Shown in pieces: positions 25,797 through 35,504 of a DNA stretch of 64,000 nt. Location of the stretch: NCBI RefSeq assembly GCF_916618755.1, contig NZ_CAKAKB010000003.1, forward strand, positions 620,001-684,000, given 5' to 3'. How positions within the stretch are numbered: position 1 is the stretch's first letter; every line of letters begins with the position of its first letter. Below the pieces are notes generated by a model that saw nothing but the letters and a program-made list of their open reading frames with translations, did not search any database and was not told the origin of the DNA. Source of the stretch: Actinotalea sp. Marseille-Q4924. Lineage in GTDB: Bacteria > Actinomycetota > Actinomycetes > Actinomycetales > Cellulomonadaceae. Position numbers and translations under genes: made by a program.

Positions 25797-27926
25797 ATGC
25801 GTCCCGTGACCGACCTGCAGCGCCGCGTCGCCCCGTTCGAGGTGGTGTCGGACTACCAGCCCTCCGGCGACCAGCCCCGGGCCATCGAGCAGCTCACCCG
25901 CCGCGTCCGCGCGGGGGAGAAGGACGTCGTCCTGCTCGGAGCGACCGGTACGGGGAAGTCGGCGACGACGGCCTGGCTCGTGGAGCAGCTGCAGCGGCCG
26001 ACGCTGGTGATGGCGCACAACAAGACCCTCGCCGCGCAGCTCGCCACGGAGTTCCGCGAGCTGCTGCCCAACAACGCGGTCGAGTACTTCGTCTCGTACT
26101 ACGACTACTACCAGCCCGAGGCGTACATCGCGCAGACGGACACCTACATCGAGAAGGACTCCTCCATCAACGAGGAGGTGGAGCGGCTGCGGCACTCCGC
26201 CACCAACTCGCTCCTCACCCGTCGGGACGTGGTCGTCGTCGCGTCGGTGTCGTGCATCTACGGCCTGGGCACGCCGCAGGAGTACGTGGACCGGATGGTC
26301 CGGCTGGCCGTCGGCGACGTCATCGACCGGGACCAGCTCCTGCGCCGCTTCGTCCAGATGCAGTACGCGCGCAACGACATGGCCTTCACACGCGGGACCT
26401 TCCGCGTGCGGGGCGACACGGTCGAGATCATCCCGGTCTACGAGGAGCTCGCCATCCGGATCGAGATGTTCGGGGACGAGGTCGAGTCGATCCAGACGCT
26501 GCACCCGCTGACCGGGGAGGTCCTCCGCCAGGAGCAGGAGACCTTCGTCTTCCCCGCCTCCCACTACGTCGCCGGACCGGAACGCATGGAGCGCGCGGTC
26601 GGGAGCATCGAGGCCGAGCTGGAGGAGCGCCTCGCGGAGCTGGAGCGCCAGAACAAGCTCCTCGAGGCGCAGCGGCTCCGGATGAGGACGACGTACGACA
26701 TCGAGATGATGCGCCAGGTCGGCACGTGCGCCGGCATCGAGAACTACTCCCGGCACATCGACGGCCGTGCGGCGGGCACCCCGCCGCACACGCTCCTGGA
26801 CTACTTCCCCGAGGACTTCCTCCTCGTCATCGACGAGTCCCACGTGACGGTCCCGCAGATCGGGGCGATGTACGAGGGCGACATGTCGCGCAAGCGGGCC
26901 CTCGTCGAGCACGGGTTCCGGCTGCCCAGTGCGATGGACAACCGACCGCTGCGCTGGGAGGAGTTCGTCGAGCGCATCGGGCAGACGGTCTACCTCTCCG
27001 CCACCCCGGGGCCGTACGAGCTGTCCCAGTCCGACGGCGTGGTGGAGCAGATCATCCGGCCGACCGGCCTGGTGGACCCCGAGGTGGTCATCAAGCCGAC
27101 CCGCGGGCAGATCGACGACCTCCTCGAGGAGATCCGCGTCCGTGCCGAGCGCAACGAGCGGGTGCTCGTGACCACGCTGACCAAGAAGATGGCCGAGGAC
27201 CTCACCGACTACCTGCTGGAGAAGGACGTCCGGGTGCGGTACCTGCACTCGGAGGTCGACACGCTGCGGCGCGTGGAGCTCCTCCGCGAGCTGAGGATGG
27301 GCCTCTTCGACGTGCTCGTCGGCATCAACCTGCTGCGGGAGGGCCTCGACCTGCCGGAGGTGTCGCTCGTCAGCATCCTCGACGCGGACAAGGAGGGGTT
27401 CCTGCGCTCAGGCACGTCCCTCATCCAGACCATCGGGCGTGCGGCACGCAACGTGTCCGGCGAGGTCCACATGTACGCCGACACGATCACGCCCTCCATG
27501 GCGCAGGCGATCGACGAGACCAACCGGCGGCGCGAGAAGCAGGTCGCGTACAACCGCGAGCACGGCATCGACCCGACGCCGCTGCGCAAGCGGATCAGCG
27601 ACGTCACCGACATGCTCGCGCGGGAGGACATCGACACGGCTCAGCTCCTCGAGGGCGGTTACCGCAACCCCGGCAAGGGGACGGGCAGGGGCAAGGGCAA
27701 GGGCCGCGCGCCGGTACCCGCCGGCGGTGTCGGCGGCGAGGGCGACAGCCCGCGGGCCCGGATGGCCGCGGTCCCGGCCGGCGAGCTGGCGGAGCTCATC
27801 CAGGAGCTCTCCGAGCAGATGCACGGGGCCGCGGCCGAGCTCCAGTTCGAGCTGGCCGCCCGTCTCCGCGACGAGATCTCCGGGCTGAAGAAGGAGCTGC
27901 GCGACATGCAGGCTGCGACCGCCTGA
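25797..27926 (+). CDS. uvrB: UvrABC excinuclease subunit B
   Basis: A 709-residue damage-verification helicase-like subunit. Walker A GATGTGKS is at residues 48-55, the beta-hairpin region [20 protein letters not shown] near 103-122 and the DESH box in [12 protein letters not shown]. Helicase motif [17 protein letters not shown] and [15 protein letters not shown] are intact. The C-terminal UVR domain ([21 protein letters not shown]) is preceded by a Gly/Lys linker ([16 protein letters not shown]). The ATG at 25797 fits both the family N-terminus and the -10 just upstream. Confidence 0.97.
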
Positions 27927-28052
27927 CCTCTGCCGGGGTGGGGCTCGGCGCTCTCGTGGCAGGGCTTCTCAAGGGACTCGCAGCCCTCCCGGGACCGGGC
28001 GCACCTCACCGCGAGCAGAGCGCGGGGTCCGCTGCGGGTCTATGCTCACCCG

Positions 28053-28183
28053 GTTGGAGGGGAGTACTCCCGCCGCGGTGGCATCGTCATCACGGCTGAC
28101 GTGACCGTCAGCCCGGTGCGCCGGTCCGGCCCTCAGGGGCGGGCGGAGGAGACCTCCGGTACCCCGATCTCTCGTACCGGAGG
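28053..28183 (+). ncRNA. yybP-ykoY manganese riboswitch upstream of terC
   Basis: The conserved GGGGAGTA loop (28059-28066), ATCGTCATCACGG segment (28082-28094), a 7-bp variable hairpin (28094-28100 with 28107-28113) and the 3' GGAGGAGACC match the yybP-ykoY family (Rfam RF00080), which binds Mn2+ and often precedes terC genes in actinobacteria. P1 pairs GGAGG 28056-28060 with CCTCC 28153-28157. The same CCTCC can instead pair with the terC Shine-Dalgarno in a perfect 10-bp hairpin (28153-28162 with 28174-28183). The two folds exclude each other, predicting translation switched ON by Mn2+. Confidence 0.88.
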
Positions 28184-28187
28184 TTCT

Positions 28188-29318
28188 GTGGACGTCCCCC
28201 TGTGGGTCTGGCTCGCGACTGTCATCGGCGTCCTCGCCCTGGTCGTCTTCGACTTCTTCGCGCACGTGCGGACCCCGCACGAGCCGACGTTCCGGGAGTC
28301 GGCGATCTGGTCGACCGTGTACATCGCCCTCGCCATCGTGTTCGGACTCGGCCTCATGGCGGTCGCCGGCACGACGTCCGGCGGCGAGTACTTCGCCGGC
28401 TACGTGACGGAGAAGAGCCTGTCCGTCGACAACCTCTTCGTCTTCCTCATCATCATGACCAGGTTCGCGGTGCCGCGGCCGTACCAGCAGAAGGTCCTGC
28501 TGGTGGGGGTCGCGATCGCGATCGTGCTGCGCGGCCTGTTCATCTGGGCGGGCGCCGCGGCGATCGAGCAGTTCTCGTGGGTCTTCTACCTGTTCGGTGC
28601 CTTCCTGGTGTACACGGCGGTGAAGCTCGCCCGCGAGAAGCACGACGAGGACGCGCCCGCCGAGTTCAAGGACACCCGGCTGCTGCGGCTCGTCCGCCGC
28701 GTCGTACCGTCGACCACCGAGTACCACAGCGACCGGCTCTGGGTGCGCAAGGCCGGTCGGCGGGTGGCCACACCCATGCTCATCGTGATGATCGCCATCG
28801 GGTCGACCGACCTGCTGTTCGCGCTCGACTCGATCCCGGCCATCTTCGGGCTCACGAAGGAGCCGTACATCGTCTTCACGACGAACGCCTTCGCGCTCCT
28901 CGGGCTGCGGCAGCTGTACTTCCTCCTCGGCGGCCTGCTCCAGCGGCTCGTGTACCTGTCCCAGGGCCTCGCTGTGATCCTCGGCTTCATCGGCGTCAAG
29001 CTCGTCCTCGAGGCGCTCCACACGAACGAGCTGCCGTTCATCAACGGCGGTGAGCACGTCGAGTGGGCGCCCGAGATCCCGATCTGGCTCTCCTTGATGG
29101 TGATCCTCGGCACCCTCACGGTCGCCACGATCGCCAGCCTGCTCGCGACGCGCCGCCGCGAGCAGCACGTCGAGTCCGTCGCGGAGCAGGGCGACCTCAG
29201 CCGCCAGGGCGTCGACCCGGAGTCGGCAGGCACCCCGGTCGCCGAGGCGCCCCTGAGCCACTCCGCGCGGGTCAGCCGGCTCGGCGACGCGACGGACGAG
29301 CGGGACGCGCGCGACTGA
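28188..29318 (+). CDS. TerC family integral membrane protein (second copy, riboswitch-controlled)
   Basis: A 376-residue TerC/Alx-type protein, a likely Mn2+ exporter given the riboswitch. Motifs are TEKSLSVDNLFVF near residue 78, GSTDLLFALDSIPAIFGLT and FTTNAFALLGLRQLYFLLGG, with conserved membrane Asp residues. About seven to nine membrane spans are apparent and the C-terminal 60 residues are charged. The GTG at 28188 is the real start: GGAGG at 28179-28183 is 4 nt upstream, while the in-frame codons before it are riboswitch sequence. It is about as long as the copy at 7165 and clearly paralogous. Confidence 0.92.
   Translation: MDVPLWVWLATVIGVLALVVFDFFAHVRTPHEPTFRESAIWSTVYIALAIVFGLGLMAVAGTTSGGEYFAGYVTEKSLSVDNLFVFLIIMTRFAVPRPYQQKVLLVGVAIAIVLRGLFIWAGAAAIEQFSWVFYLFGAFLVYTAVKLAREKHDEDAPAEFKDTRLLRLVRRVVPSTTEYHSDRLWVRKAGRRVATPMLIVMIAIGSTDLLFALDSIPAIFGLTKEPYIVFTTNAFALLGLRQLYFLLGGLLQRLVYLSQGLAVILGFIGVKLVLEALHTNELPFINGGEHVEWAPEIPIWLSLMVILGTLTVATIASLLATRRREQHVESVAEQGDLSRQGVDPESAGTPVAEAPLSHSARVSRLGDATDERDARD

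Positions 29319-32642: not shown

Positions 32643-35504
<2,862 letters not shown>

Follow-up and report, generated by a model that had tools for sequence, protein, structure and literature searches.

The leader of the terC gene in Actinotalea sp. Marseille-Q4924 is very probably an alx-type yybP-ykoY Mn2+ riboswitch operating as a translational ON switch, in which the strand CCUCC at 28153-28157 would be exchanged between helix P1 of the aptamer and a hairpin covering the Shine-Dalgarno (SD) sequence. As judged from sequence comparison, the core loops are common to the relatives of this leader and to the E. coli alx leader, and P1 and the SD-covering hairpin compete for CCUCC. The window, that is, the whole stretch of DNA analysed, comprises 64 kb of the forward strand of contig NZ_CAKAKB010000003.1 (620,001-684,000; assembly GCF_916618755.1); positions given below are those of the window, and the leader and terC lie on the forward strand.

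The terC gene (28188-29318), starting with GTG, encodes a membrane protein of the TerC/Alx family, as evidenced by its matches to the Pfam family TerC (PF03741, E 2.6e-51) and to the NCBIfam family TIGR03718 (short name R_switched_Alx; 386.9 bits, over the cut-off of 246.4). Upstream of the aptamer, TATGCT (28041-28046) is a probable -10 box on account of its placement in relatives, a TANNNT motif starting 12-18 nt upstream of P1 in 59 of 71 distinct relatives, compared with 0-3 in eight control windows. The terC mRNA would thus probably start at about 28053. A strict two-hexamer sigma-70 scan of 27900-28300 yielded no promoter.

Architecture of the proposed aptamer

The best 80 of at least 551 related TerC loci were taken, and the core GGAGTA...GTCANNACG...GAGACC was found in 75 of these 80; the regular expression for the core was absent from five (L067, L080, L086, L094, and L099), with L094 carrying a GAAGACC version by eye. 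Pattern searches of 197 genomes returned 16 for the pattern ending TCGTCATCAC and none for that ending ATCATCAC. The 75 TerC loci and 15 of the 16 pattern matches (the window included) made up a 90-locus set, which was reduced to 64 by collapsing near-duplicates, and 62 sequences (without L030 and L074) were aligned as alignment A1, comprising the window, seven pattern matches, and 54 TerC loci. One row of A1 (L081) comes from a MAG labelled Chloroflexia, and no row is labelled Proteobacteria. A covariance model, R1, was built from these 62 sequences of terC-type leaders, and a second alignment, A2, comprised the 90 model-aligned loci (86 distinct rows).

R1 matched the window at 28053-28159 with 92.2 bits (E 3e-17; the window sequence is one of the model's 62 rows), delineating a putative alx-type yybP-ykoY aptamer of three helices, P1, P3, and P4. 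P1.1 pairs GGAGG (28056-28060) with CCUCC (28153-28157), the shared switching strand, which would serve either as the P1.1 3' strand or as the anti-SD, and P1.2 pairs CUCC (28067-28070) with GGAG (28145-28148), as indicated by pairing and covariation. Between P1.1 and P1.2, the window sequence contains the internal loop L1, GGAGUA (28061-28066)/GAGA (28149-28152), both strands of which were invariant in A1; GGAGUA is present in E. coli alx, and GAGACC, a part of the regular expression, was also found in E. coli mntP and alx. The 5' strand of P3.1 (28076-28080) pairs with 28119-28123 to form the weakest helix, and is followed by loop L3 (28081-28093) with GUCAUCAC and by the P3.2 hairpin (28094-28113), an 8-bp stem read from the sequence, the outer three pairs of which were 95.7% paired in A2. 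For the P4 hairpin (28124-28144), the three outer pairs were 96.1% paired in A2. The L3 motif GUCANNACG recurred in 90 of 90 regex matches, as the regex demanded, and since L1, L3, and GAGACC belonged to the search pattern, their invariance is partly circular.

Across the 90 loci, only two P1.1 combinations occurred, GGAGG/CCTCC (48 loci) and GAAGG/CCTTC (42 loci); the regex had constrained the 3' strand at no more than its first two C. P1.2 was UUCC/GGAA in 24 loci, CCCC/GGGG in 19, UCCC/GGGA in 16, and CUCC/GGAG in 14, and more rarely CGCC/GGCG (2) or GCCC/GGGC (1); 14 combinations were imperfect. On A1, P1.1 was paired in all 62 sequences (second pair GC in 32 and AU in 30), and 96.8% of the P1.2 cells were paired, with UA, CG, and GC as pair types. 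The three-helix plan is backed by pairs, P3.1 being paired in only 67.4% of cells on A2 (57.0% on A1, where it is misaligned), with two-sided changes at all five of its pairs on A2. Over the whole of A2, 89.2% of cells were paired and none of 500 shuffles reached any of five measures, statistics that lean in the structure's favour because A2 was fitted to the model structure. RNAalifold, applied to a plain MAFFT alignment, recovered P1.1 and P1.2 and missed P3 and P4; a CGU/ACG hairpin that it proposed in L3 was set aside as nearly invariant and hence uninformative.

For the yybP-ykoY class, Mn2+ sensing at L1 and L3 and its link to P1.1 have been established (PMC6754395), and the same source gives the L3 counterparts UCA41AUUC (A41, L. 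lactis) and ACA48UACU (A48, X. oryzae). From its place in GUCA(28089)UCAC of L3, A28089 is the expected Mn2+-contacting adenosine, presumably equivalent to A41 and A48. The L3 adenosine and a Mn-linked gene are found in the E. coli mntP, L. lactis yoaB, and X. oryzae yebN leaders as in the window, whereas the structures from L. lactis and X. oryzae have a four-way junction, as described in PMC6754395, rather than the three helices predicted here; a three-way junction was reported for Streptococcus mgtA (PMC9495176). The likeness to E. coli alx extends over L1 (GGGGAGUA...GUGAGACC), L3 (AUCGUCAUUACG), P1.1, P1.2, and P3, with no P2 by eye, and GGGGAGTA, ATCGTCATTACG, and GTGAGACC are, also by eye, shared with the window leader. 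Read by eye, alx offers the P1 3' strand a partner in a short hairpin (GACCTTGCC/GGCGAGGTC) located well before the start codon, whereas in the window leader this strand pairs directly with the SD. The E. coli mntP leader shares the GGGGAGUA loop, but its L3 is of the ACAUACU type, unlike that of the window leader.

Competition for the shared strand

The sequence-only reading had proposed that two copies of GGAGG, one at 28056-28060 and the other being the SD at 28179-28183 (start codon GTG at 28188), can each pair with CCTCC at 28153-28157, and that the second pairing belongs to a perfect 10-bp hairpin. The coordinates proved exact, and the sequence contains the perfect 10-bp stem CCTCCGGTAC/GTACCGGAGG (28153-28162/28174-28183) with a loop of 11 nt, in which the inner stem GGUAC (28158-28162) pairs with 28174-28178 and the 3' arm (28174-28183) ends in the SD. 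A 10-bp hairpin by itself is not rare in the window, where mismatch-free stems of 10 bp or more (loop 3-20) begin at 43 positions, compared with 1-15 in ten dinucleotide shuffles, and 28050-28220 has a folding energy only modestly below that of shuffled sequences (z -2.11; equalled by 4 of 200). The hairpin rises above chance because it is conserved in relatives.

For 74 of the 75 TerC loci with the core (L084 being left out for its length), folds were computed for the P1 3' strand together with the sequence extending to the start codon; in 71 of them, four or all five bases of this strand were paired, mostly with an SD of GGAGG or GAAGG. The stem was tallied over 65 distinct loci, with six duplicates collapsed and L041, L045, L085, and L088 left out for having no pairing at the first base. 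Positions 1-6 were paired in all 65, and positions 6-10 in 65, 59, 62, 47, and 50, respectively. The pair types were CG 31, TG 25, and TA 9 at position 4; GC 49, AT 15, and GT 1 at position 6; and, among the 62 loci paired there, TA 40, GC 11, CG 7, TG 3, and AT 1 at position 8. As the arms come from minimum-energy folds, the variety of pair types, and not the pairing itself, constitutes the evidence. The base at position 4 is also the one that changes in step with the P1 5' strand, so that a single strand stays complementary to both of its partners. The proposed mutual exclusion of P1 and the anti-SD hairpin is supported by their single shared strand and by the conservation of both pairings with compensated variation. 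The description of the switch as unusually clean was overstated, since the twin GGAGG for one CCTCC occurs in 31 of the 65 distinct relatives, the rest having CCTTC.

Folding with ViennaRNA, which includes no metal and no tertiary contacts, favoured the OFF fold by 8.8 kcal/mol over 28053-28190, and by 15.5 and 18.6 kcal/mol for transcripts reaching 28220 and 28260, respectively. In transcripts of the window leader ending at 28157-28181, where the SD arm is still incomplete, the P1.1 probability did not exceed 0.07; it reached 0.5 in 20 of 75 relatives, among which the ON fold costs a median of 9.5 kcal/mol (range 0.6-31.6). Given this preference for OFF without metal, the ON state would need metal, L1/L3 contacts that the calculation does not credit, or kinetics; equilibrium folding as the sole account of the ON state fails, the OFF fold being energetically preferred.

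At high cellular Mn2+, the metal would bind between L1 and L3 and hold P1 together, so that CCUCC would stay in P1, the SD would be free, and TerC would be made. At low Mn2+, CCUCC would pair with the SD and terC translation would be off. TerC may in turn lower free Mn2+, via efflux and/or via Mn2+ loading onto exported proteins. TerC proteins have been linked both to Mn efflux and to Mn loading of secreted enzymes (PMC10550928), and the export of Mn2+ assumed in the sequence-only reading is therefore just one possibility.

Family assignment, distribution, and downstream genes

The Rfam 15 model RF00080 gave no match in the window at its gathering score (45 bits) and none over 27900-28300 even at E ≤ 10. 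The absence of an Infernal match above threshold had been named beforehand as refuting the riboswitch reading, and at face value this result would do so. Across the whole genome of the window, RF00080 returned nothing above 12.5 bits, and among 20 relatives searched with Rfam 15 at E ≤ 5 no family was matched, RF00080 included. As positive controls, the E. coli K-12 mntP leader scored 41.6 bits with RF00080, below the 45-bit cut-off, and the E. coli alx leader (L100:2574-2699) was not matched at E ≤ 10. Both E. coli K-12 leaders have been assigned to the yybP-ykoY family (PMC9603457). Since RF00080 misses E. coli alx too, the test is non-diagnostic for alx-type RNAs, and it was dropped as the deciding test of membership. 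In 14 control genomes, RF00080 matched nine at E ≤ 10, three at E ≤ 0.01, and two over the cut-off, Corynebacterium glutamicum being matched at E ≤ 10 only and not at E ≤ 0.01. R1, which contains no Proteobacteria-labelled row, recognized the E. coli alx leader with 40.9 bits (E 1e-7 over 6,502 bases, by a rough calibration), and the same search gave no match for E. coli mntP. Of the yybP-ykoY (RF00080) identity proposed earlier, the alx-type class is supported by comparison, and the RF00080 label was not confirmed with Rfam 15.

The leader of C. glutamicum cg2157 (terC), likewise an actinobacterial terC leader, was annotated as RF00080 with an older Rfam (PMC3890552), Table 2 of that source giving a score of 49.13 bits and a transcript start, mapped by RNA-seq, no more than 6 nt from the motif. 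Rfam annotations of Corynebacterium leaders precede the present work (PMC3890552, PMC3890534, PMC4046766), and Mn2+ riboswitches in Corynebacterium and Streptomyces are named in a background sentence of PMC8164766. As the older Rfam had marked the C. glutamicum terC leader, the kind of switch was already known; what may be new is the direct exchange between P1 and the SD across Actinomycetota, together with the current Rfam model's blind spot.

Two surveys with stricter filters covered what appear to be the same 296 Actinomycetes genomes. At E ≤ 0.01, R1 had matches in 199 of these (in 77 of the 115 genera and 189 of the 267 good assemblies), whereas RF00080 had matches in 11 and over its cut-off in none. 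Since eight rows of R1, the window's included, came from this 296-genome sample, model and sample are not fully independent. R1 was also run on 119 genomes drawn from the phylum; 30 had a match at E ≤ 0.001, and 20 of these belong to classes other than that of the window. Downstream genes were assigned for 90 loci, consisting of the 30 best R1 loci and 60 picked places (86 distinct, with four duplicates), and encoded TerC in 83, GDT1 in two, an uncharacterised family in three, and neither in two. A further 20 loci, picked from the 119-genome draw with weak matches and second copies favoured, preceded GDT1 (8), TerC (5), P-type ATPase (5), one doubtful ATPase (L225, where the ATPase match lies farther downstream and the nearest gene encodes SAICAR synthetase), and one unmatched gene (L226), whose product matches a Na/Ca exchanger below the cut-off. 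GDT1 was confirmed with Pfam in five examples and the ATPase in two. Proteins of the TerC, UPF0016, and P-type ATPase families have been described as Mn exporters or Mn-linked (PMC13274385).

In the genome of the window itself, a second copy (L132:1226-1341, corresponding to G000:C2:172225-172340; 70.3 bits with R1) is located upstream of a TerC paralog (1363-2448) and has a similar possible anti-SD hairpin, CCTCCGGTC/GACCGGAAGG, with one mismatch by eye. All ten GDT1-linked copies examined (L144, L150, L215, L217, L218, L219, L220, L222, L223, and L233) carry a different L3 type, GACAYACUG in nine and GACACACCG in L150, which resembles the E. coli mntP loop ACAUACU more than it does the terC type. 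The aptamer was also present upstream of the uncharacterised family in L137:371-1234, L145, and L189 (genomes G106, G168, and G239, sharing one genus label, g7); the proteins have 288 aa in L137 and 291 aa in L145, and that of L137 had no match in Pfam and NCBIfam. In L178, an R1 match precedes a gene whose 160-aa product has a C-terminal GreA/GreB domain (PF01272), an unexpected target; by eye, P1 is CAAGG/CCTTG there, and an arm CACAAGG lies close to the SD. A strong R1 match of 71.7 bits at L142:226-334 is without TerC, GDT1, or a similar gene downstream, and a 104-aa ORF in L142 had no match in Pfam. In the window, an additional weak R1 match at 33327-33428 (22 bits) was regarded as chance because it lies inside the long ORF 32643-35504.

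Alternative readings and implications

It is improbable that the same aptamer fold responds to a signal that is not Mn2+ alone, be it Ca2+, another transition metal, or alkaline pH. Such a signal would fit the E. coli alx and mntP reporters, which respond to alkaline pH besides Mn (PMC9603457), the Streptococcus mgtA member, which according to a review binds Ca2+ more tightly than Mn2+ (PMC9495176), and the P-type ATPases downstream in five of the 20 further loci together with the weak Na/Ca exchanger match below the cut-off. However, most examined matches precede TerC or GDT1, families tied to Mn (PMC13274385), and the leader has the L3 adenosine to which the preference for Mn is ascribed. 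Even less probable is a conserved RNA acting mainly via transcription termination, intrinsic or Rho-dependent, with the SD hairpin as a by-product. Members of the yybP-ykoY class reportedly control either transcription or translation (PMC6754395), E. coli mntP is also Rho-regulated (PMC11647493), and in L225 the P1 3' strand can, by eye, form a terminator-like hairpin with a T run, perhaps a transcriptional platform using the strand in the same way; yet no intrinsic terminator-like site was found in 27900-28300, and 71 of 74 terC loci retain the anti-SD pairing. A role of the SD hairpin as a fixed brake or RNA thermometer with no ligand is highly improbable: the OFF fold is indeed very stable alone, but this explanation would account neither for the covariation of P1 and the match to alx nor for the R1 matches upstream of GDT1 and ATPase genes.

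Beyond the preferred reading of the terC leader as a translational Mn2+ switch, a wider proposal can be put forward tentatively, namely that Actinomycetota harbor a large branch of Mn2+ riboswitches that is nearly invisible to the current Rfam, swaps a 5-nt strand between P1 and the SD with near-identical partner strands, and in some genomes governs genes not yet linked to Mn, such as those for the ~290-aa protein and the GreA-like protein. A Mn2+ switch of this type would place TerC under Mn2+ control in a large bacterial class. The Rfam 15 Manganese model misses the alx type, as reflected by its 11 matched genomes versus 199 for R1 among 296 at E ≤ 0.01, and a rebuilt or split Rfam family would mend the annotation and point to new Mn-linked genes.
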